From the NCBI RefSeq assembly GCF_003008515.1, contig NZ_CP027668.1:62001-126000 (forward strand): DNA of 64,000 nt, read 5' to 3'. Under the pieces are notes generated by a model that did not search any database, was not told the DNA's origin, and saw only the letters and a program-made list of their open reading frames with translations. The stretch comes from Phreatobacter cathodiphilus. GTDB lineage: Bacteria > Pseudomonadota > Alphaproteobacteria > Rhizobiales > Phreatobacteraceae. Shown piece after piece: positions 4,968 to 14,790 of the stretch. The first letter of the stretch is position 1. Each line of letters begins with the position of its first letter. Position numbers and translations under genes: made by a program.

Positions 4968-5507
4968 ATGCACGACGATAGCGCGAAAGCGGATGACAAT
5001 ACACGCGGCCTGATCAAGAGCCCCCAGGACATGTTTGCGGGGCTGTTCATCATCGCCTTCGGCCTCCTGATCATGTGGGCGTCCTCGAATCTGACGGGCG
5101 GCCGCGGTGCCAATCTCGGCCCCGGCTCCTTCCCGCGCGGCCTCTCATTTCTCCTCGTGGCCGTCGGCGTGGTGATCATCGTCCAGGCCCTGACCGTCGT
5201 CGGTCCGCGCCTCGAGGCCTGGTCGATCCGCGGCCCGGTCTTCGTTCTCGGCGCCGTCCTGCTCTTCGCCATGACGATCCGCGGCACCACGCTCAACATC
5301 CCCGGAATCGGCCGCACCGATCTCCTGCCGCCGCTCGGCCTCATCGTCGCCGGACCGCTGACCCTCGTCGTCGCCAGCCTTGCCGCCACCGAGCGCAACT
5401 GGACCCAGACGCTGATCTTCTCGGCGGCCATGACCGCCTTCTGCATCCTGCTGTTCAAAGTCGCGTTGAGGCTGCCGATCCCGGTCGCCCCGTGGGCCGG
5501 CTGGTAA
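4968..5507 (+). CDS. tctB: TctB-family small membrane subunit of a tripartite tricarboxylate transporter
   Basis: A 179-residue inner-membrane protein with four or five hydrophobic segments (from about residues 17, 48, 82, 117 and 147). The motifs GLFIIAFGLLIMWAS and GPGSFPRGLSFLL are the TctB signature (DUF1468). In TTT systems TctB and TctA form the membrane complex that imports carboxylates captured by a periplasmic TctC. The start at ATG 4968 follows a GGGGGA ribosome-binding stretch. tctA begins 10 bases after its stop. No TctC gene lies on either side. Confidence 0.92.
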   Translation: MHDDSAKADDNTRGLIKSPQDMFAGLFIIAFGLLIMWASSNLTGGRGANLGPGSFPRGLSFLLVAVGVVIIVQALTVVGPRLEAWSIRGPVFVLGAVLLFAMTIRGTTLNIPGIGRTDLLPPLGLIVAGPLTLVVASLAATERNWTQTLIFSAAMTAFCILLFKVALRLPIPVAPWAGW

Positions 5508-5517
5508 GGCGCGTCAC

Positions 5518-7026
5518 ATGGATATGGTTGCCAATCTGGCGCTGGGCTTCGGCGTCGCCTTCACCGTCAAGAACCTCGGTCTCTGCTTCCTCGGCTGCAT
5601 GATCGGCACGCTGATCGGCGTGCTGCCCGGCGTCGGCCCGATCGCCACGATCGCCATGCTGCTGCCGATCACCTTCGGCCTCGACCCGGTCGGCGCGCTG
5701 ATCATGCTCGCCGGCATCTACTACGGCGCGCAGTACGGCGGCTCGACCACGGCCATCCTCGTCAACATCCCCGGCGAGGCGACCTCCATCGTCACCGTGC
5801 TCGATGGCCACCAGATGGCCCGCAACGGCCGCGCCGGCGCCGCCCTCGGCATCTCCGCCATCGGCTCCTTCTTCGCCGGTTCGGTGGCCACGATCGTGAT
5901 CGCGGCCCTCGCCGCGCCGCTGACCCGCGTCGCGCTGCTCTTCGGCCCGGCGGAGTATTTCTCGCTCATGGTCATGGGCCTGATCTTCGCCGTCGTGCTG
6001 GCGCGCGGCTCGGTCATCAAGGCCGTGGCCATGGTGCTGCTCGGCCTCACCCTCTCCACCGTCGGCCAGGACCTCGAGACCGGTGCCGACCGCATGACCT
6101 TCGGCTGGCCGGAACTCTCCGACGGCATCGACTTCACCACCATCGCCATGGGCATGTTCGGGTTCGCGGAAATCCTCCGCAATCTCGAATCGCCCGAGAC
6201 GCGCGACGTGCTGAAGAGCAAGATCGGCAGCCTCCTGCCCAACTGGGAGGAGATGAAGCAGTCGCTCATGCCGGTGCTGCGCGGCACCGGCCTGGGCGCC
6301 GCCCTCGGCATCCTGCCCGGCAACGGCGCGGTGCTCGGTCCCTTCGCCAGCTACACGCTGGAGAAGAAGATCGCCAAGGATCCGAGCCGCTTCGGCAAGG
6401 GCGCGATCGAGGGCGTCGCGGGTCCGGAGAGCGCCAACAATGCCGGCGCGCAGACCTCCTTCATCCCGCTGCTGACGCTCGGCATCCCGCCCAACGCCGT
6501 CATGGCCCTCATGGTCGGCGCCATGACCATCCACGGCATCGTGCCGGGCCCGCAGGTCATGGAAAAGCGGCCCGATCTCTTCTGGGGCATGATCGCCTCG
6601 ATGTGGATCGGCAACCTCATGCTGCTCATCATCAACCTGCCGATGATCGGCCTGTGGGTGAAGCTCCTGAAGGTGCCCTACCGCATGCTGTTCCCCTCGA
6701 TCCTGATGTTCTGCTGCATCGGCATCTACTCGGTGAACAACAACCCCTTCGACGTGATGATCACCGCCTTCTTCGGCCTCGTCGGCTACGCCTTCATCAA
6801 GATGGGCTTCGAGGTCGCGCCGCTGCTGCTCGGCTTCGTGCTCGGCAAGCTGATGGAAGAGTATCTGCGCCGGTCGATCCTGATGTCGCGCGGCGACTGG
6901 TCGGTCTTCGTCGATTTCGTCAACCGGCCCATCTCGGCCGTGCTGATCGCCATCGCCGTGCTGATGCTGATCATCTCCTTCCTGCCGGCGATCACCAAGA
7001 AGCGCGACACCGTCTTTGTCGAGTGA
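5518..7026 (+). CDS. tctA: TctA-family large membrane subunit of a tripartite tricarboxylate transporter
   Basis: A 502-residue protein with about a dozen hydrophobic helices, the usual length for TctA. The signature block near residues 35-95 is present: GVLPGVGPIATIAMLLPITF, then IYYGAQYGGSTTAILVNIPGE. A second internal repeat has GILPGNGAVLGPFASY. It is translated right after tctB and should form the transport channel. The substrate cannot be told from sequence; TTT systems take up citrate, tartrate, terephthalate and other carboxylates. A separate TctC must lie elsewhere if the system works. Confidence 0.95.
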   Translation: MDMVANLALGFGVAFTVKNLGLCFLGCMIGTLIGVLPGVGPIATIAMLLPITFGLDPVGALIMLAGIYYGAQYGGSTTAILVNIPGEATSIVTVLDGHQMARNGRAGAALGISAIGSFFAGSVATIVIAALAAPLTRVALLFGPAEYFSLMVMGLIFAVVLARGSVIKAVAMVLLGLTLSTVGQDLETGADRMTFGWPELSDGIDFTTIAMGMFGFAEILRNLESPETRDVLKSKIGSLLPNWEEMKQSLMPVLRGTGLGAALGILPGNGAVLGPFASYTLEKKIAKDPSRFGKGAIEGVAGPESANNAGAQTSFIPLLTLGIPPNAVMALMVGAMTIHGIVPGPQVMEKRPDLFWGMIASMWIGNLMLLIINLPMIGLWVKLLKVPYRMLFPSILMFCCIGIYSVNNNPFDVMITAFFGLVGYAFIKMGFEVAPLLLGFVLGKLMEEYLRRSILMSRGDWSVFVDFVNRPISAVLIAIAVLMLIISFLPAITKKRDTVFVE

Positions 7027-7056
7027 TCCCCGGGCCGTCCCGTACGAACCTTCCTG

Positions 7057-7082
7057 CCGGCGGCGCCCTCGGGTGCCGCCGG
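7057..7082 (+). terminator. Hairpin after tctA
   Basis: CCGGCGGC (7057-7064) and GCCGCCGG (7075-7082) form an 8-bp GC stem with a 10-base loop. It is followed by TTGCGTTC rather than a pure T run, so intrinsic termination is possible but not strong. Confidence 0.4.
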
Positions 7083-7171
7083 TTGCGTTCGGAGGGGGCG
7101 TAACGGCCGCCCGCGACGATCCGTAAGTCCGCGTGAGGGCAAGCCCGCCCCGCCGGACGAAAGGGTCGACC

Positions 7172-7645
7172 ATGCCGCCTGCCTCCAGCCTCACCCGCCG
7201 CGCCCTCGGCCCCCTCCTCGCGGGCGCCTCGCTCCTCGTCTCCGCCATGTCCGCCGTCGCCGGACCCGAGGTCTATACGGGCACGCTCTCAAACCTCGCC
7301 GCCGACGGCTACGACGTCGTCGCCTTCCACCGCGAGGGACGGGCGCTGCGCGGCGATCCGCGCTTCACCCATCGCTGGAAGGACGCCGTGTGGCGCTTCG
7401 CCAGCGCCAACGCCCGCGACGCCTTCGCCGCCGATCCCGCCCGTTACGCCCCCGCCTATGGCGGCCACTGCTCCTGGGCCGCCGCCCAGGGCTACCGTGC
7501 CTCGGGCGATCCCCGCCACTGGCGCATCGTCGCCGGCCGGCTCCACTTCAACTACGACGCCCGGGTCCACCGGACCTGGCTCGCCGATGCCGAGAGTCTC
7601 ATCGCCGCCGCCGATCGCAAGTGGCCCTCGATCCTGGCGCAGTGA
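7172..7645 (+). CDS. Secreted YHS-domain protein
   Basis: A 157-residue protein with a probable signal peptide at residues 1-30 (RRALGPLLAGASLLVSAMSAVA). The mature part has the YHS pattern: VYTGTLSNLAADGYDVVAFHREGRALRGDPRF, then HRWKDAVWRFASANARDAFAADPARYAPAYGGHCSWA. This is the form often annotated as a YHS domain-containing protein and thought to bind metal or heme. ATG 7172 is chosen because it opens the signal peptide and follows GAAAGGG; an earlier in-frame GTG lacks this. It stands alone between tctA and DUF2853. Confidence 0.85.
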   Translation: MPPASSLTRRALGPLLAGASLLVSAMSAVAGPEVYTGTLSNLAADGYDVVAFHREGRALRGDPRFTHRWKDAVWRFASANARDAFAADPARYAPAYGGHCSWAAAQGYRASGDPRHWRIVAGRLHFNYDARVHRTWLADAESLIAAADRKWPSILAQ

Positions 7646-7772
7646 CCGCCGGGCTCATCGGGTTTTTGCCGGAGGTCGCGGGTGGCGACGCACCGTCGGG
7701 CCGGTGCTAGTCTTCGCTCGCTCCCGGCCCGTCAGGGTCGGGTCGATGCCGCAGAACAGGGGAGAAATCGGC

Positions 7773-8093
7773 ATGAGCGACTGGTTGGCTGACGTAAAGA
7801 AATATGCGCCGAAAGCGGACGAAGCGGCCGTCGCGGGCATCGTCAAATATCTCGGCATCGCGCTCAGGAATCGCGATTCCTCTCTCGTGTCTTTTGCCGA
7901 TCCCGAGGAAGTCTCCCGGGTGAAGAAGAATTTCTGCATGAAGAAGCTGGCGCTGACCGACGAGGCCGCCATCGACGCGGCGCTCGCCAAGGTCGCCGCC
8001 GCCCTCAAGGGCGACCGGACCAAGAACCGCGTGACGGTCTATTACCTGCTCGCCGAGCACTTCAAGAAGCTCGACCTCTTCGTCAAGAAGTGA
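7773..8093 (+). CDS. DUF2853 family protein
   Basis: A 106-residue cytoplasmic protein starting MSDWLADVKKYAPKADEAAV, with KYLGIALRNRDSSLVSFADPEE and RVKKNFCMKKLAL, and ending VYYLLAEHFKKLDLFVKK. These blocks match the DUF2853 family, a small all-helical fold with no known function. The ATG at 7773 follows GGGGAGAAA. The track's longer upstream extension has no family support. It probably ends at the hairpin just downstream. Confidence 0.88.
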   Translation: MSDWLADVKKYAPKADEAAVAGIVKYLGIALRNRDSSLVSFADPEEVSRVKKNFCMKKLALTDEAAIDAALAKVAAALKGDRTKNRVTVYYLLAEHFKKLDLFVKK

Positions 8094-8101
8094 GCGCCTC
8101 C

Positions 8102-8125
8102 CGGGCGCCGGACCGCCGGCGCCCG
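8102..8125 (+). terminator. Perfect GC hairpin after the DUF2853 gene
   Basis: CGGGCGCCGG (8102-8111) and CCGGCGCCCG (8116-8125) make a 10-bp stem with the four-base loop ACCG. No T run follows, so this may terminate weakly or protect the mRNA end. Confidence 0.45.
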
Positions 8126-8215
8126 CCGATTCATGTGGGTGTCGCGCCGCGCGCTGCTGCCAGCGAGCCGCCTTCCGCGCTATAGTCTCCGCTCTCGGAT
8201 TCGCCGGAGGCCGCC

Positions 8216-8737
8216 ATGCGCCAGTATCACGACCTGATGGAGCACGTGCTCAGGCACGGCGCCCGCAAGGACGACCGCACCGGCACCGGCACGCTCTCCG
8301 TCTTCGGCCACCAGATGCGCTTCGACCTGTCGGAGGGCTTTCCGATGGTCACCACCAAGAAGCTGCATCTGAAGTCGATCGTCCACGAGCTCCTCTGGTT
8401 CCTGAAGGGCGACACCAACATCGCCTATCTCAAGGCCAACGGCGTCAGCATCTGGGACGAATGGGCCGATGCGGAGGGCAATCTCGGCCCCGTCTACGGC
8501 AAGCAGTGGCGCTCCTGGGCCGCCCCCGACGGCCGCACCATCGACCAGATCGCCAATCTCGTGGCGATGCTGAAGGCGAATCCGGACTCCCGCCGCCTCA
8601 TCGTCTCGGCCTGGAACCCGGCGGATGTCGAGGCCATGGCGCTGCCGCCCTGCCACTGCCTGTTCCAGTTCTACGTGGCGGACGGCAGGCTCTCCTGCCA
8701 GCTCTACCAGCGCTCCGCCGACATCTTCCTCGGCGTG
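8216..8737 (+). pseudogene. thyA: Native thymidylate synthase, 5' part (codons 1-174), interrupted
   Basis: This is the N-terminal two thirds of a normal ThyA (dUMP methylation with methylene-tetrahydrofolate). [31 protein letters not shown], the dUMP-loop arginine, [11 protein letters not shown], the catalytic cysteine in [12 protein letters not shown] and the [10 protein letters not shown] block are all intact. After the GTG codon at 8735-8737 similarity stops. The frame runs on into insert DNA for 31 codons, to a stop at 8828-8830. The continuation, beginning PFNIASY, is found at 13146. Without the C-terminal third, including the PFN asparagine that recognises dUMP, this product should be inactive. 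It has the local 70% GC, unlike the insert. Confidence 0.95.
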
Positions 8738-9118
8738 GGCAATTTTTCAGGAATAACGCAGGAAATTAGTGACTGCAGCGCGGCCAATCCCGATAGCAAT
8801 TCCGGCCCACGAAAGGCCAACTATCACTAGTTTGCCGCTACAGATATTGAGTGGCGAAGCTCGCATGCCAGGACGCTGACACCATACCGCTATTGAAACT
8901 GACTGCCGTGTAATTCGGTCGCCGCCCTTTGTGCTTCTCAACTGAAAGCTTGGTAGGCACCTCTTCCCGTGGCGGCTGCTACCAGGACGAGCCAGCGCTT
9001 TGGGCAACCGCCGAAGGCAGCCCACCATGTTCTCTCCTCATACGCACGGTGACGAAACAGCCGAGTCACCTTAAGGTCCGCCCGAGAAGCCCGCTGCGAA
9101 GATTGCACGGAGTTGGGA
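8738..9118. other. Left end of the insertion, no gene recognised
   Basis: These 381 bases separate the split native thyA from the replacement thyA. No ORF with family support is visible on either strand. The region is of mixed, lower GC. It should hold the left attachment site and the promoter of the incoming thyA; no clear -35/-10 pair could be fixed by eye. Confidence 0.5.
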
Positions 9119-10015
9119 ATGAGACATCCAGAATACCAGTACCTCGACCTACTCGAACGAGTACTGGAAACAGGGGACGAGCGAATAGACCGCACCGGCG
9201 TCGGCACCCGGTCAGTCTTTGGTAGTATGGTCCGCTTCGACCTATCGCAAGGGCATGTCCCGATCCTCACCTCGAAGCGAGTATATTGGAAAACTGCTGT
9301 TAAGGAGATGCTGTGGTTCCTGACGGGCGGCACCAACATTCAAGACCTTCTCAAAGATAACGTCCGAATTTGGACGGATTGGCCGCTCGCCTCCTACCGA
9401 GCTGCGACCGGGGAAACGATCACGCAAACAGATTTCGAGCGCCGCATATTAGAGGACGACGCTTTTGCTCGGAGATGGGGCGAACTCGGCCCGGTCTACG
9501 GGAAGCAATGGCGTCGCTGGTTGGGGCCAGATGGACGAGAGCATGACCAGATTGCTGTGCTCGTTCAACTGCTCAAAAATAATCCATCAAGTCGGCGAAT
9601 GCTTTTTCACGGTTGGAACGTTGCTGAACTCAGTGACATGGCGCTGCCTCCATGTCACATGGTGTACCAGTATCATGTAACCTCAGGCGGAAGACTCAAT
9701 TGTTTACTCTTTCAAAGGTCTGTCGATCTTTTGCTCGGGGCCCCGTTCAATTTTGTAGGCGCTGCAACTCTTCAGTTGATGCTTGCACAGCAGTCCAAGC
9801 TTGAGCCTGGAGAGCTGATTTGGGTCGGTGGCGATACGCACCTCTACAGGAATCATCTAGACGTGGCCCGCGAGCAGATCCGCCGTGATCCCCGGCCGTT
9901 TCCCACCATGAGTATAGTAAGGGACGTTCCTAGCATCGATGATTACAAAATTTCGGATTTCTTGGTTGAGAACTACGATCCTCACCCTGCAATCCAAGCG
10001 GATGTTGCGGTATGA
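9119..10015 (+). CDS. thyA: Second, intact thymidylate synthase carried by the insertion
   Basis: A 298-residue ThyA, apparently complete. It has the N-terminal RIDRTGVGTRSVFGSMVRFD, the [12 protein letters not shown] block, the catalytic cysteine in ALPPCHMVYQYHV, RSVDLLLGAPFN with the substrate asparagine, GDTHLYRNHLD and the C-terminal DPHPAIQADVAV. It has a longer small-domain insert (about residues 83-119) than the native 264-residue form, as in Lactobacillus-type enzymes, and PFNFVGAATL in place of [13 protein letters not shown] 9119 follows GGAG with a six-base gap. It is low in GC and clearly foreign. It should supply dTMP in place of the broken native gene. The next ORF starts inside its stop (ATGA). 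Confidence 0.93.
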   Translation: MRHPEYQYLDLLERVLETGDERIDRTGVGTRSVFGSMVRFDLSQGHVPILTSKRVYWKTAVKEMLWFLTGGTNIQDLLKDNVRIWTDWPLASYRAATGETITQTDFERRILEDDAFARRWGELGPVYGKQWRRWLGPDGREHDQIAVLVQLLKNNPSSRRMLFHGWNVAELSDMALPPCHMVYQYHVTSGGRLNCLLFQRSVDLLLGAPFNFVGAATLQLMLAQQSKLEPGELIWVGGDTHLYRNHLDVAREQIRRDPRPFPTMSIVRDVPSIDDYKISDFLVENYDPHPAIQADVAV

Positions 10016-10326
10016 GCCAGGGCCAACGTGTTGATTGGGCCAGAAGAGAGTGTCTTTTGAGGGCCGTCATAGAGGAGGACAAGCGATCCGGGCGACTTGT
10101 AACGAGTAGAGGAGGAATGATCAGCCGAAAATATTACACAAAAGCGATAGGTATACCTGAGCAACCTGGCGGACAAAGACTTTTCTCCGTATTTTCAGAA
10201 TATGAAAAACTCTACAACGTCGAGACCAATCCGAAGGCATTATTGCCCGAGATGCGAATTTGGCTTGAAGCCGCCTTTCGTGACCGAAGTTTGGCCATGC
10301 ACGCCGAAGGGCTCGATCGGAGGTGA
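10012..10326 (+). CDS. Unknown protein coupled to the foreign thyA, 3' end cut by the IS
   Basis: The start ATG overlaps the thyA stop (ATGA), so the two genes are translationally coupled. It reads 104 residues, beginning MSQGQRVDWARRECLLRAV, with LVTSRGGMISRKYYTKAIGI and FSVFSEYEKLYN. It is basic and probably helical. I do not recognise the family; the G-x-I-x-R-x-x-Y pattern hints at DNA binding, but this is only an impression. The stop codon (10324-10326) lies inside the left inverted repeat of the IS, so the original protein was probably longer and has been truncated. Confidence 0.5.
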   Translation: MSQGQRVDWARRECLLRAVIEEDKRSGRLVTSRGGMISRKYYTKAIGIPEQPGGQRLFSVFSEYEKLYNVETNPKALLPEMRIWLEAAFRDRSLAMHAEGLDRR

Positions 10327-10386
10327 CCTGCCACTGAGTTTTTCCTCCACGCGGAGTTAGAGTCCGGCCCTGACGAGGACGGACAG

Positions 10387-10653
10387 ATGAAGCGAGCAAG
10401 GTTCACCGAGGAGCAGATCATCGCGGTTCTGCGCGAGCACGAGGCGGGGGCGAAGACCGCCGACCTGGCGCGTAAGCACGGGATCTCGGAAGCGACGCTG
10501 TACAACTGGAAGGCCCGCTATGGCGGGATGGATGTCTCCGAGGCGAAGCGGCTGAAGCAGCTCGAGGACGAGAACGCCAAGCTGAAGAAGCTTCTGGCTG
10601 AGCAGATGTTGGATGCAGCTGCACTTCGCGAGCTTCTCGCAAAAAAATGGTAG
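10387..10653 (+). CDS. IS3-family transposase OrfA
   Basis: An 88-residue helix-turn-helix plus leucine-zipper protein: [37 protein letters not shown], then a coiled segment with [20 protein letters not shown]. This is the HTH_Tnp_1 OrfA of IS407-type elements, which binds the element ends. Its 3' end has A-AAA-AAA-TGG-TAG (10641-10653). A -1 slip on the A run would fuse it to OrfB, giving the active OrfAB transposase. Confidence 0.95.
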
Positions 10654-11519
10654 GGCCCGCCGCCAAGCGCGAGGCAGTCGCGCATCTGCGGGCCGTCATG
10701 GGCCTGTCGGAACGGCGGGCCTGCAGCATCGTCGACGCTGACCGGAAGATGGTCCGCTATCGGTCGTGTCGTCCGCCGGATTTGGCCCTGCGAACCCAGC
10801 TGCGCGACCTCGCCAATGAGCGGAGGCGCTTCGGCTATCGCAGGTTATTTGTGCTTCTACGCCGCGACGGCGAGCCTTCCGGGATCAACCGCATCTACCG
10901 GCTCTACCGCGAGGAAGGCCTGACCGTGCGCAAGCGGCGCGTCAGACGCCGCGCAGTCGGAACACGGGCACCGATCCTCGTCGAAGCGAAGGCCAACGCA
11001 CGCTGGTCGCTCGACTTCGTCCATGATCAGCTTGCCTGCGGCCGGCGCTTCCGCATTCTCAACGTGGTCGATGACGTCACTCGGGAATGCCTTGCCGCCA
11101 TTCCCGACACCTCGATCTCGGGGCGGCGCGTTGCACGCGAACTGACGGGGTTGATCGAACGTCGGGGCAAGCCAGACATGATCGTCTCCGATCACGGAAC
11201 CGAGTTTACCTCGAACGCCATGCTCGCCTGGGCGCAGGAGAACCGGGTCACGTGGCACTTCACTGCGCCGGGCAAGCCCATGCAAAACGGCTTCTGCGAA
11301 AGCTTCAACGGACGCATGCGTGACGAACTGCTCAATGAGAGCCTGTTCTTCGGGCTCGACCACGCCAGGATCAGGATCGCCGCCTGGGCTGACGACTACA
11401 ATCTCCGGCGCCCTCACTCGGCGCTCGGATATATCCCGCCGGCGGCCTATGCCGCCAAGCTCACCACCGCTGCGCAATCCCGCGCAAAACCCGCCGAGGC
11501 TCTAACCGCCGCTGGATGA
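10647..11519 (+). CDS. IS3-family transposase OrfB, DDE integrase domain
   Basis: 290 residues with an HTH_21-type N-terminal part and an rve catalytic domain. The acidic triad appears intact: D in [14 protein letters not shown] in [15 protein letters not shown], and E in [19 protein letters not shown]. The C-terminal [19 protein letters not shown] is standard. It is expressed as OrfAB by -1 frameshifting at the A7 run; its own ATG at 10647 overlaps orfA. No internal stop is visible, so the IS may still be able to move. Confidence 0.95.
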
Positions 11520-11538
11520 CAAAGCAGTGGCAGGTCAC

Positions 11539-11925
11539 GATGTAGATCGGCGACGCGAAATTCGGGGCTGAGGCTTCAAGAACCGTGCGAATGGTCGCAA
11601 GCCGGGCGGGCTCCTCGACGATCCGCTCCAGCAGCGAGTCGGAAAGAGTGGGGCGGTGCTCGATTAGTCCTTCGTAACGCGGCTTGAGCGGCCCGCGCAG
11701 CTGCGCTGAATAGGGCTGCTCACGGAAATAGCGAAATACCGACTCATCAAGGAAGTCGCGGACCGCATCTTTGGCCGCCGATGTTCCCCGACTTTCTTTC
11801 AGCCTCAGAATGTCCGACGTAATGCGGTCGAGATCGAATGCGGTTATCTCGGGTGTATAATACCAGGCATAAACGCCAGGCGCGGCAGGGACGTCGGCGA
11901 TCTCATGCCAGCTGTAAATCGCCAT
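11539..11925 (-). pseudogene. GIY-YIG-like gene fragment, 3' end cut off by the IS
   Basis: About 129 residues remain, from ATG (complement of 11923-11925) to the IS end. It begins MAIYSWHEIADVPAAPGVYA, with WYYTPEITAFDLDRI, later PLKPRYEGLIEHRP and finally NFASPIYI, where the IS inverted repeat starts. PGVYAWYY and SPIYI look like the two halves of a GIY-YIG core, but about 100 residues separate them, far more than in I-TevI or UvrC. The expected glycine of YIG and everything after it are lost; the frame then runs into the IS to a stop at 11461. Family call from memory of pattern, so moderate. Confidence 0.55.
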
Positions 11926-12248
11926 GGAACGTCAGGACGCCCTTCACCTCGAACGACCGAGGTATCTGCGAGCGAATCGATCCGCGCAACTCCGGCCTGC
12001 CCGGCCGAAGCCTAGCAAGAAGCGGTTTTCGATGCACCGCCATAATCCTCTCGGCCCGTCACCCTGCCGAGGTGTCTCGAGGAGGCGTCGAGGCATGACC
12101 AACAGCTCGCTATCTGTGTTTAAGCTGTGAACTCGTACTTAGGCCACGAGCCGCGGCCTGCGCTCGGGCTACCCCGCCTCGTCGAACAAGCGGCGCATCG
12201 CGGCACGGCGAGAGGCTCTGTAGGGCGCGTAGGAGAGGCGCTTGAACT
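11926..12248. other. Stretch inside the insertion with no recognisable gene
   Basis: This 323-base stretch lies between the GIY-YIG-like fragment and the integrase remnant. Only short frames without family support are present. It probably holds the promoter of the minus-strand fragment and decayed element DNA. No repeat or hairpin stands out by eye. Confidence 0.5.
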
Positions 12249-12960
12249 TCAGGCCATCGAGTAAGCCCTGCACGTATCCCGAGACCGCGTCCAGTGCTTG
12301 ATTATCGCGGTGTCCATCTCGTGGATGTAGCGGGTAGTGACGGACCCCTGCGCGTGGCCAAGAAGTGCGGCTACGGTCGCTCCGGTGAAACCGAGATCAT
12401 TGGCGAGGCGTGCATAGCTGTGGCGAAGGACGTGGGGTGCCACATCGGCGAGCGGCGTTAACTCCGCGATCTTGCGCCAGTGCTTGGGAAAGCCGACCGG
12501 CTTACCTTCAATCGTTCCCGGAAAGGTTGGGCTACTCGCCTCGTCAGGCCGACGCTGCTCCAAGAGCTCGAGCGCGGGAAGCCCGACCGGCCTGACCGAC
12601 AGGCCTTCCTTCGTGTCCTTCAAGCTGAACCGGATCACGTCGGCCGAAGCGATGTCTTTAGCCTTGCAGGTGCGAGCAGCGGGATGATGTGCCGCTTAAT
12701 CCGTCCCTCGCCTATGTAGATTGCAAAAGCTTTCTTCGGGCGACGGCCTTTGCCGAGAATGAGGCCCTGCGTCGCCTCATCCAGGTAGCGTTCGCAAGGC
12801 TCCTTCACGCTCATCGTCTCATGGTCGACCAGGCGCCCCTCGGCGAGGCTGGCGCCTTGAGCTATGCGACCCGGAAGGACGCAGGCTTCTCGCCGTGCCG
12901 TCTCCGGCTTCCAGACGCCGTCGGGGTGGCTGCTCCCCGCCTCTGAGTTGGTGCCTCCGG
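12249..12960 (-). pseudogene. Tyrosine recombinase (integrase), decayed
   Basis: Read on the minus strand. The N-terminal part (12814 down to about 12655) encodes MSVKEPCERYLDEATQGLIL and then RRPKKAFAIYIGEGRIKRHI, the core-binding domain of alphaproteobacterial phage-type integrases. A frameshift near 12658-12664 is needed to continue as KDIASADVIRF. The sequence then jumps to LKDTKEGLSVRPVGLPALEL, so about 130 residues, including the first catalytic arginine, are missing. The C-terminal catalytic part remains: HVLRHSYARLAND, ALLGHAQGSVTTRYIHEMD with the nucleophilic tyrosine. Frameshift and deletion make it inactive. It lies near the right end of the thyA insertion, where an integrase is expected. 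Confidence 0.85.
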
Positions 12961-13031
12961 CAACAGCGGGACAGTGAACCCTTCTTACGACTGACGCTTC
13001 AATCGGCGTTGGCTAGCCGCCTGAGGCGCGA

Positions 13032-13076
13032 CAAAGCCTCGGCTGAGCAACCCCGACCAGCTCCGCCGAGGCTTTG
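13032..13076. repeat. Perfect 12-bp inverted repeat near the right end of the insertion
   Basis: CAAAGCCTCGGC (13032-13043) and GCCGAGGCTTTG (13065-13076) flank a 21-base spacer, about 70 bases inside the right junction and upstream of the integrase remnant. Possible roles are a recombinase arm site, an operator or a transcription stop. The sequence alone does not decide. Confidence 0.7.
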
Positions 13077-13145
13077 CGCTTTGCGCGGCGTCAGCGGGCC
13101 GCAAGCACAATAGCGGTTCGGTCTCAAAACGGCATGACCGGAAAA

Positions 13146-13418
13146 CCCTTCAACATCGCCTCCTACGCGCTCCTGACCCTCATGCTGGCGCAGGTGACGG
13201 GGCTGAAGCCAGGCGACTTCGTCCACACGCTCGGCGACGCCCACATCTACACCAACCACATCGAGCAGGCCGAGCTGCAGCTCACCCGCCCGCTGCGGCC
13301 CCTGCCGGTCATGACGCTGAACCCCGACGTGACCGACCTCTTCGCCTTCACCTATGACGATTTCACGCTGACGGGCTACGAGCCGCATCCGGCCATCAAG
13401 GCGCCGGTGGCGGTCTAG
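13146..13418 (+). pseudogene. thyA: Native thymidylate synthase, 3' part (codons 175-264), displaced
   Basis: This is the exact continuation of the 5' fragment ending at 8737. It begins [20 protein letters not shown] and has [20 protein letters not shown] and the C-terminus [14 protein letters not shown]. The 90 codons here plus the 174 codons before the insertion give 264, the standard ThyA length, so nothing was lost. Element DNA supplies an in-frame ATG at 13134 (MTGK-PFN), but no good ribosome-binding site is seen and the fragment lacks the catalytic cysteine. GC returns to host level here. Confidence 0.95.
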
Positions 13419-13428
13419 GGCGGTCGGC

Positions 13429-13854
13429 GTGAGCTTTGGCCTGAAGCGGGCTGATCTGCATCAGTTGGCGGAAGCCAAGTATGAAGATGCGCTCCTGCTG
13501 CTGTCCCATAGACGCCCATCCAACGCCTTCTATATGGCGGGGTATGCGGTCGAGATCGGCTTCAAAGCCTGTATCGCGCTGCAGTTTGCGGCTCACTCCA
13601 TCCCTGATCGCCGCTTCGTCTCGGCGGTCTACACTCATTCATTGAAGGAGCTTGTCGGACTGGCCGGTCTTACTGGGGAAATGAAACAGCGTCAGGTTGA
13701 CGATGTCCAGTTCGCGGCGAATTGGTCGGTCGTGGTACAATGGTCCGAGGAAAGCCGCTATCGGATGATCGATGAACTGACCGCGAGCAGCATGATCGAC
13801 GCGGTCGGAAATCGGAACCACGGAGTTCTCCCATGGCTGAAACTGCACTGGTAG
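13429..13854 (+). CDS. HEPN-domain protein
   Basis: A 141-residue, mostly helical protein. The segment LAEAKYEDALLLLSHRRPSNAFYMAGYAVEIGFKACIA is cut here into its recognisable parts: the AFYMAGYAVEIGFKA block is the HEPN signature (an aromatic residue, then E-x-x-x-K helix), followed by THSLKEL. A canonical RxxxxH RNase motif is not obvious. HEPN proteins include RNase toxins and nucleotidyltransferase partners. It starts at GTG 13429, ten bases after the thyA remnant, and overlaps the next gene by 22 bases. Its base composition is less GC-rich than folA, so the pair was probably acquired. Confidence 0.7.
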   Translation: MSFGLKRADLHQLAEAKYEDALLLLSHRRPSNAFYMAGYAVEIGFKACIALQFAAHSIPDRRFVSAVYTHSLKELVGLAGLTGEMKQRQVDDVQFAANWSVVVQWSEESRYRMIDELTASSMIDAVGNRNHGVLPWLKLHW

Positions 13855-14219
13855 GGCCTGACGTAGGGGGTGCCCGGGCTCTGATGTCGCTGCTGGAGAG
13901 CCAGGGGCTCGCCATCAGGTCCGCCCTTTTCGTCCTCGCTGCGGAAGACGCAAACTGGAGGCTCTGGCTCGAGTTCGCACGCCCGTTTGACGACAAGCGC
14001 GAGGCCTACCGGCGTATCGCCGCGATCGTGGCGGCCCACCAGCAGGAGATTGGCGGCATCGACACCAGTGATATCGACCTAATCGCCTCCGACAACAAGG
14101 CGCTGGAAGCGTTGGGCCGAATTGTGAAGCTCGGCGCCGGGGGCCAGGTCCAGCTGTCGAACAACATGTTCAACGGGGTGTTCCTCCCCGAGGCGATCAT
14201 TCTGAAGATGAATCGCTGA
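13833..14219 (+). CDS. Unknown partner of the HEPN protein
   Basis: A 128-residue protein starting MAETALVGPDVGGARALMSL, with ANWRLWLEFARPFDDKREAY and NNMFNGVFLPEAIILKMNR. It overlaps the HEPN gene by 22 bases, so the two are made together. It has no membrane segment and shows no nucleotidyltransferase (GSxxxGD) motif, so it is not an ordinary MNT antitoxin. I do not recognise the family. The overlap suggests antitoxin or partner status to the HEPN protein, by context only. folA starts ten bases after its stop. Confidence 0.6.
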   Translation: MAETALVGPDVGGARALMSLLESQGLAIRSALFVLAAEDANWRLWLEFARPFDDKREAYRRIAAIVAAHQQEIGGIDTSDIDLIASDNKALEALGRIVKLGAGGQVQLSNNMFNGVFLPEAIILKMNR

Positions 14220-14229
14220 GATTGCGCAA

Positions 14230-14790
14230 TTGACCCCCATCGTCCTCATCGCGGCCGTCGCCGCCAACGGCGCCATCGGCCGCGACAACCACCTGCTCTG
14301 GCGCCTGAAGTCCGACATGGCGCATTTCCGTGCCGCCACGGCCGGCCTGCCGCTGGTCATGGGGCGCAAGACCTTCGAGAGCTTCGGCGGCAAGCCGCTG
14401 CCGACGCGCCTCAACATCGTCGCCTCCCGCCAGCCCGGCCTGTCGCTGCCCGGCGCCGTCGTCACCGGCTCGCTCGAGGCGGCTCTCGCCATCGCCCATG
14501 CCGAGGCGCTGCGCTCGGGCGCCCCGGAGATAGCGGTTCTCGGCGGGGCTGACATCTATGCCCAGGCCATGCCGCGGGCCGACCGGCTCCTCATCACCCA
14601 TGTCGATGCCGAGCCGGAGGCCGACGCCTTCTTTCCCGCCATCGACCCGGCGATCTGGACCGCGGAGACAGGAACCGAGCACCCGGCGGGACCCGGCGAC
14701 GACCACCCTTTCCGTGTCGTCGCCTACCGGCGCACCAGCGGCGGAACGCCGCATGGCGCAGCGCAGGGGCCGGACACCTCCCCCCGTTAG
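14230..14790 (+). CDS. folA: Dihydrofolate reductase
   Basis: A 186-residue cytoplasmic enzyme that regenerates tetrahydrofolate from the dihydrofolate made by ThyA. It starts at TTG 14230 with TPIVLIAAVAANGAIGRDN, then LLWRLKSDMAHFRAAT, LVMGRKTFES for NADPH binding, and EIAVLGGADIYAQAMPRADR. The acidic residue of the active site is D in SDMAHF. No ATG is available near the family N-terminus, so TTG is chosen. A C-terminal tail of about 20 residues exceeds the usual length. It normally follows thyA; here a thyA remnant and two foreign genes lie upstream, which may have changed its promoter. Confidence 0.95.
   Translation: MTPIVLIAAVAANGAIGRDNHLLWRLKSDMAHFRAATAGLPLVMGRKTFESFGGKPLPTRLNIVASRQPGLSLPGAVVTGSLEAALAIAHAEALRSGAPEIAVLGGADIYAQAMPRADRLLITHVDAEPEADAFFPAIDPAIWTAETGTEHPAGPGDDHPFRVVAYRRTSGGTPHGAAQGPDTSPR

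Follow-up and report, generated by a model that had tools for sequence, protein, structure and literature searches.

The general view is that mobile elements keep out of essential genes or else restore the ends of those in which they land. In Pseudomonas putida KT2440, a 65-kb island located in tmk carries as its last gene a substitute, PP_1964, which was shown to be essential; the island contains tyrosine-type recombinases and is called a first-case example by its authors (PMC10653934). The ginABCD islands known as GInts combine several tyrosine recombinases in one operon with a high insertion specificity, short imperfect repeats, staggered cuts of 6-7 nt and a large cargo, and the target is probably not fully inactivated when they insert (PMC5385486). 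The elements designated SEs and Tn554 leave a 6-bp footprint that is carried over from the donor site (PMC10214605), and the Aeromonas elements Tn7360 and Tn7361a/b are integrated within thyA with 6-bp direct repeats (PMC10229833). Here we describe an island of 4.4 kb in Phreatobacter cathodiphilus, situated in a stretch of 64,000 nucleotides of contig NZ_CP027668.1 (the window), which separates two native pieces of the thymidylate synthase gene thyA and whose first gene is a complete, divergent thyA. Judged from sequence comparisons, and with a probability of roughly 0.86, the island is a decayed GInt-like tyrosine-recombinase element that is site-specific for thyA codons 175-176 and carries a complete thyA.

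A first-pass annotation of the window had claimed that the native reading frame is split after codon 174 and resumes beyond the island. This claim was borne out: the 174 codons of the left piece and the 90 codons of the right piece are consecutive parts of one ThyA of 264 residues, the right piece starting with the next residue, the two are treated as parts of one protein in tblastn and Pfam comparisons, and the congener G001 contains the same 264 codons unsplit, with identities of 97.7% to the left and 96.7% to the right piece. The annotation had also advised a search for an uninterrupted thyA in relatives, which is provided by G001, and for the same island in others, and thyA cut at the same place was found at ten other loci (see below). 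In 11 of 11 same-genus genomes the ThyA match is a stop-free open frame of 276-348 amino acids (aa), G001 alone having been read through at thyA and the other ten having been scored by open frame; these matches are 47-52% identical to the island ThyA. That the first gene of the island is a complete and divergent thyA, as had been proposed, is confirmed by its Pfam match (Table 1), and the PCH motif, the cysteine of which we take to be the catalytic residue, is retained in an alignment with solved thymidylate synthases (best chain 1an5). The genome consists of one closed contig of 4,494,445 bases, rated 100% complete. In a search of the whole genome the island copy was the sole intact thymidylate synthase, and ThyX (PF02511) had no match anywhere in the 4.49 Mb, which answers the annotation's question as to a second intact thyA or a thyX. 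An assembly join was considered and is unlikely, given the single complete contig and the recurrence of the same split elsewhere.

The essentiality of thyA is established. At the sequence level the earlier proposal that the element splits an essential gene and brings its replacement stood, since the only intact substitute is carried by the island and the same exchange is found elsewhere; replacement of the thymidylate synthase by the carried copy appears well supported. Relative to the congener, the left native piece has 24.5 synonymous and 6.5 nonsynonymous changes and the right piece 16 and 4. The ratio of nonsynonymous to synonymous substitution rates (dN/dS) of about 0.07 is consistent with a recent insertion and little time since function was lost. 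For the carried thyA, dN/dS was not computable owing to saturation of the synonymous sites.

A genome-contig scan with the island ThyA yielded at least 582 relatives. Among the best 80 loci, which were examined, seven have a ThyA 5' piece that ends at the equivalent of codon 174 just upstream of a full thyA. With one of the best 80 loci of a viral-contig scan and two loci met via the recombinase, ten loci beyond the window, from several proteobacterial orders, have thyA cut at the same place (Table 1). The carried thyA lies near the left end and is oriented as the target gene: each of the ten left junctions, that of the window included, is followed on the same strand by a second thyA that starts about 130-720 bp downstream. 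Both native halves are on one contig in five cases (the window, L043, G152, G153 and L237). Measured between their ends, the islands span 4.4 kb in the window, 2.2 kb in L043, 39 kb in G152, 62 kb in G153 and more than 46 kb in G155.

The element ends are inverted (TTTTCCGG and CCGGAAAA) and flank a 6-bp core. On the left, codon 174 is followed by six bases and then by TTTTCC in 8 of 10 junctions, the exceptions deviating in one base each (TTTTCA in the window, GTTTCC in L057); an apparent 3-base shift in L060, L061 and L148 results from alignments that end one residue early. On the right, ACCGGAAAA is followed by CCNTTC or GCCTTC in six of the seven junctions, with L237 as the exception. This right core codes for the native Pro-Phe (or Ala-Phe) pair, and in the window it opens the right thyA piece as CCCTTC. 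The left core differs from the right in five of the six elements in which both were read (GGCAAT in the window and CCGAGG in E155 are left cores) and equals it in L043. Inspection by eye revealed that five of seven right junctions (the window, L043, G152, G1756 and L237) have an ATG or GTG in frame with the native core and 4-5 codons ahead of it; translation towards the downstream gene might be maintained from this start codon, which the right end supplies. A search of viral contigs for the left-end pattern gave 15 matches, none of them with a thyA match.

Four of the related loci contain genes for large tyrosine-recombinase-like proteins. L057, L074 and E153 (in G153) have five gene families in common, in one order, and the first two families are present in L148; in L057 and L074 the operon lies beside thyA. 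The 679- and 463-aa families keep R..HxxR..H..Y-like motifs, as seen by eye, and match proteins of GInt-like clusters in profile comparisons (E 3.4e-10 and E 1.9e-9), and the 880-aa family does so with E 1.9e-7 in L234 and only 0.0019 in L236, these two clusters being called GInt-like from their gene order and, in L236, also from an ssb neighbour. The profile comparisons of the small proteins, the 142-aa family with that of L236 and the 184-aa family with that of L234, gave no match; the 142-aa protein has a weak NCBIfam match to VPA1267 (E 1.3e-4). By profile, the large operon proteins, which are tyrosine-recombinase-like, resemble GInt-like integrases. The operon has left a stub in the window, which is 41.8% identical to the 880-aa protein of L057 (tblastn E 1.5e-14) and matches the 1176-aa protein of L074 with E 2e-15. 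The island is not an intact element: to judge from its sequence it is a decayed member of the group that keeps the thyA, both ends and the recombinase stub, with an IS3-type insertion inside. The 880-aa recombinase had no match in 72,556 plasmids, and a two-sequence profile of it found nothing in viral contigs, yet L148 encodes one, so that this search missed at least one. An AlphaFold model of the 880-aa protein had a mean predicted local distance difference test score (pLDDT) of 58 and was not used.

Two further clusters were observed. In L236, positions 6564-12552, a GInt-like four-gene cluster directly precedes a complete ssb (named by eye). In L235 (G865), positions 5072-13410, a related operon (828, 735, 180 and 475 aa) lies beside an apparent truncated rtcB, recognized by eye, which is perhaps another landing gene.

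How tightly the recombinases go with thyA was estimated from genome scans. With the 880-aa protein, the window itself was the only match among 385 genomes of the class. The 679-aa family matched in 4 of 398 genomes of the phylum and in 2 of 298, 8 of 323 and 6 of 329 genomes of the families of G153, G155 and G152, respectively. Matches above 400 bits occurred in four genomes and all lie in thyA: G152, G153, G155 (G861 representing the identical place) and G1756. Fifteen genomes had weak matches, that of G833 (L237) being in thyA. Because the strong recombinase matches sit in thyA and most of the weak ones that were read are out of sight of one, insertion into thyA would seem characteristic of a single clade within a wider group, judged from few independent cases.

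Several observations weigh against the interpretation of the island as a member of a thyA-specific element family. The three genomes G152, G153 and G155 were known beforehand through thyA and were the source of the query, which leaves G1756 as the only independent test, and in this genome the second thyA has the reverse orientation and a left thyA piece was not found in 60 kb. Eight of the 14 other weak-match genomes were read over 14-40 kb (the remaining six include G1416, the contig of which is too short), and none of the eight has a thymidylate synthase there. No split gene is seen in the available flanks of 73 of the 80 best loci with this ThyA type; in 28 of these 73 a dihydrofolate reductase-like match lies within 2.2 kb of thyA, as for ordinary thyA. 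The right end of L237 is degraded, and in E153 the operon is near the right end and has an extra open reading frame (ORF) of 767 aa before its last gene. In a tree of 85 ThyAs, the bootstrap of which had not settled and in which L237 and the outgroup form long branches, the ten carried copies are not one clade; 10 changes are needed, at least six of them forced by supported branches, as compared with a mean of 9.6 for shuffled labels, which is no better than chance. thyA was therefore not simply inherited with the element; repeated exchange or capture of the gene is probable. In one supported group of 44 ThyAs, sequences from Alpha-, Beta- and Gammaproteobacteria occur together with that of a single contig assigned to Actinomycetota, which may be a contamination; this group invites, without proving, the idea that elements spread thyA.

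Among the matches listed, the identity of the island ThyA reaches 80% with ThyAs of Sphingomonas, roseobacters and others. A phage origin of the carried thyA was rejected, since all 3929 matching phage records are less than 60% identical, as against 80% for the nearest bacterial protein. Transport of thyA by an insertion sequence was likewise rejected: the IS3-type element, of which one copy was found in the genome, excludes thyA.

The sequences show directly where thyA is cut, that the ends are inverted around a 6-bp core, that a thyA is carried and that relatives have a recombinase operon of which the window keeps a stub; a plausible course of events would connect these observations as follows. 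The integrases would recombine the element ends with the thyA core, such that the native core remains on the right and the carried-over core lands on the left. The native thyA would thereby be inactivated and the carried copy, close to the junction, would take over its function, perhaps being read from the native thyA promoter. Such read-through is possible; the terminator scan revealed no terminator-like site on the plus strand in 8000-10400. Afterwards the carried thyA could not be lost, the rest could, and the element would decay around the carried gene to a form such as that in the window. The first-pass annotation had inferred an addiction by gene replacement. This idea is sound insofar as the cell would be expected to die if the carried thyA alone were lost or the element were deleted in part; it fails for loss of the whole element, because clean excision between the ends should rejoin and restore the native thyA. 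Excision might leave the 6-bp carried-over core behind, in which case thyA would perhaps not be restored. Retention of the carried thyA is thus what the comparisons support, not strict addiction. A wider proposal is tentative, and we would sooner doubt than accept it: a dedicated GInt-like clade might use thyA both as landing site and as obligatory passenger, making its insertion survivable and nearly irreversible, swapping thyA between orders by decay and serving as a standing engine of essential-gene replacement.

Other origins of the arrangement are conceivable. The island contains a Phage_integrase fragment, and this broken integrase could have brought it, the thyA-linked ends then being incidental; however, relatives with the large recombinase operon have matching ends, and the stub belongs to that operon; this explanation is very improbable. 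Equally improbable is a cargo ride, with thyA carried for the supply of thymidine monophosphate or for antifolate tolerance and the landing of the element in thyA a coincidence. Phages indeed often have thyA-like genes (matches in 3929 of 50,697 phage records), but the left junctions lie at one codon, with a full thyA adjoining, in 10 of 10 cases, a count that is biased in that nine of the ten were found via thyA and L237 was not.

Slightly less probable still is that the two native thyA pieces are expressed and assemble into a working ThyA, the island copy being a spare. The in-frame ATG from the right end of the window, and the start codons in the same place at the other right junctions, would suit such a split enzyme. 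Speaking against it is the intactness of the island thyA in the window while the rest of the element has decayed. A working split enzyme was also considered for tmk of P. putida, where the pseudogene reportedly proved non-essential (PMC10653934). The preferred explanation remains insertion of a site-specific element followed by exchange of the gene.

Table 1. Features of the thyA island and its surroundings (window coordinates), gene families of the related operons and other loci with thyA cut at the same place
Feature or locus	Position	Strand	Evidence and remarks
Native thyA, 5' part	8216..8737	+	174 codons; Pfam PF00303, profile 1-176, E 3.8e-85
Left 6-bp core GGCAAT	8738..8743	+	Unlike the native Pro-Phe codons; left junctions of 10 loci compared
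Left element end TTTTCAGGAAT	8744..8754	+	Near-match to TTTTCCGG of relatives
Putative replacement thyA, 298 aa	9119..10015	+	Intact, ATG at 9119; Pfam PF00303, profile 2-266, E 1.6e-102; NCBIfam thymidylate synthase models
Recombinase stub, 104-aa ORF	10012..10326	+	Start of the element's first recombinase gene
IS3-type insertion sequence, two transposase frames	10387..11519	+	After the cut recombinase gene; HTH_Tnp_1 E 4.8e-26, rve_3 E 1.4e-30
ORF overlapping the insertion sequence	11464..11925	-	No Pfam family above the cut-off in the Pfam search
Broken phage-type integrase, two frames	12252..12814	-	Phage_integrase E 5.8e-07 for 12252-12638
Right element end ATAGCGG...TGACCGGAAAA	13110..13145	+	In-frame ATG at 13134
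Native thyA, 3' part	13146..13418	+	90 codons (13146-13415) and stop; Pfam PF00303, profile 164-266, E 5.1e-37
folA-like gene	14230..14790	+	Lies after the split thyA; in L131 the intact thyA is followed by an ORF with 91% identity
Operon families, L057/L074/E153			880/1176/872, 679/681/697, 184/178/190, 142/143/154 and 463/470/507 aa; start codons uncertain, last gene of L074 compared over its first part only
L043, Sagittula salina			Codon-174 split
L054, Granulosicoccus (metagenome-assembled genome)			Codon-174 split; left side only
L057 (G152), Burkholderiales PBB3			Codon-174 split, both halves on one contig
L060 (G153), Sphingomonas sp. Leaf412			Codon-174 split, both halves on one contig
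L061 (G154), Sphingobium sp. AP50			Codon-174 split; four right-hand fragments on two other contigs, none traced to the junction
L074 (G155), Tardiphaga robiniae			Codon-174 split; right half on another contig
L108, Rhizobium (metagenome-assembled genome)			Codon-174 split; left side only
L148, viral collection (1 of the 80 best loci)			Codon-174 split; left side only
L237 (G833)			Met via a recombinase remnant, not thyA; codon-174 split, both halves on one contig; right end degraded
G1756			Met via the recombinase; right junction, operon, a second thyA that differs in type and has the reverse orientation, repeats nearby

The island had been described as lower in guanine plus cytosine than its surroundings. 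This is correct for about 8750-10250 (0.50-0.57), not for most of the remaining island (0.60-0.65), which falls within the range of the flanks shown (0.60-0.74). The scan for promoter-like sites gave 2 where 0.9 were expected, and that for terminator-like sites 1 where 2.2 were expected, both near chance. The designation IS3-type is a reading of the HTH_Tnp_1 and rve_3 families, and the part of the integrase between 12638 and 12814, which has no Pfam match, is assigned to that fragment from its position. The folA-like gene is named from a reading of its sequence, with no family search behind the name. Between the split thyA and this gene, at 13429-14219, lie two ORFs, the first of which is weakly HEPN-like (E 0.014, under the Pfam cut-off); by eye, the congener locus L131 has a shorter, different stretch there.

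The large islands carry additional cargo, which in two of them includes genes for defence against phages. Padloc scans covered 14 chosen proteins of E152 and E155, one of which (1792 aa) matched nothing. E152 encodes QatA/QatB, a DruE-like helicase, a type IIG restriction enzyme, a DrmD-like helicase and GajA/GajB, and E155 a methyltransferase, a methyl-directed restriction enzyme, Vsr, and DrmB-like and NERD-helicase-like proteins. E153 has a metal-efflux-like gene set, as read from its sequence.

In Sphingobium limneticum G185 (L067, L129-L130) a full element-type thyA is accompanied by what look like weak traces of the native pieces (E 0.003 and 0.018), one just upstream and the other 19 kb downstream of thyA. 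This locus, which was left out of the split-locus counts, may be a fossil, the end stage of an element. Other thymidylate-synthase matches were noted elsewhere, a second full copy in G170 and partial or distant ones in G187, G208 and G212. The virus records L220 and L225 (1953-2408) have a distant second thymidylate-synthase-like stretch near thyA, about 23% identical, which is perhaps a hydroxymethylase.

If the proposed exchange is correct, elements of this family disrupt an essential gene completely and persist by exchanging it. This would explain how a gene such as thyA can jump between bacterial orders, offer a testable route to the lasting fixation of defence islands and place the tmk case of P. 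putida within a more widespread strategy. A literature search that left subscription papers largely and supplements entirely aside brought up, among the entries listed, no element that splits thyA and also carries one. The statement in the first-pass annotation that no such element with thyA is described accordingly stands in part: no account was found of a GInt-like group that repeatedly swaps thyA for thyA, but the tmk precedent and the Aeromonas elements in thyA are published.

The thyA elements appear to share with GInts the multi-recombinase operon, the specificity, the short repeats and the cargo, in addition to the three profile matches to GInt-like clusters; thyA is absent from that main text (PMC5385486). 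They differ from GInts in gene order and in an extra 180-aa gene: instead of ABCD at one island end, their order is 880-679-184-142-463, beside thyA or near the right end. No GinD match was obtained in the two comparisons with small proteins of GInt-like clusters. With SEs they share, by description, two or more tyrosine recombinases, target specificity and a 6-bp footprint (PMC10214605). As in SEs and Tn554, bases of the core are carried over at one end, the two ends differing in 5 of 6 elements. SEs were described from Gammaproteobacteria, and thyA does not appear in the main text (PMC10214605). For Tn7360 and Tn7361a/b, the main text names thyA once and without a replacement copy (PMC10229833). 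The tmk island resembles the thyA islands in that an essential gene of thymidylate metabolism is split and a substitute is carried; it differs in its target, tmk, and in that the substitute is a T4-like deoxynucleoside monophosphate kinase and not a homologue of the target (PMC10653934). The strategy of essential-gene replacement thus has a precedent in the tmk island, and what appears new is the recurrent exchange of thyA for thyA.

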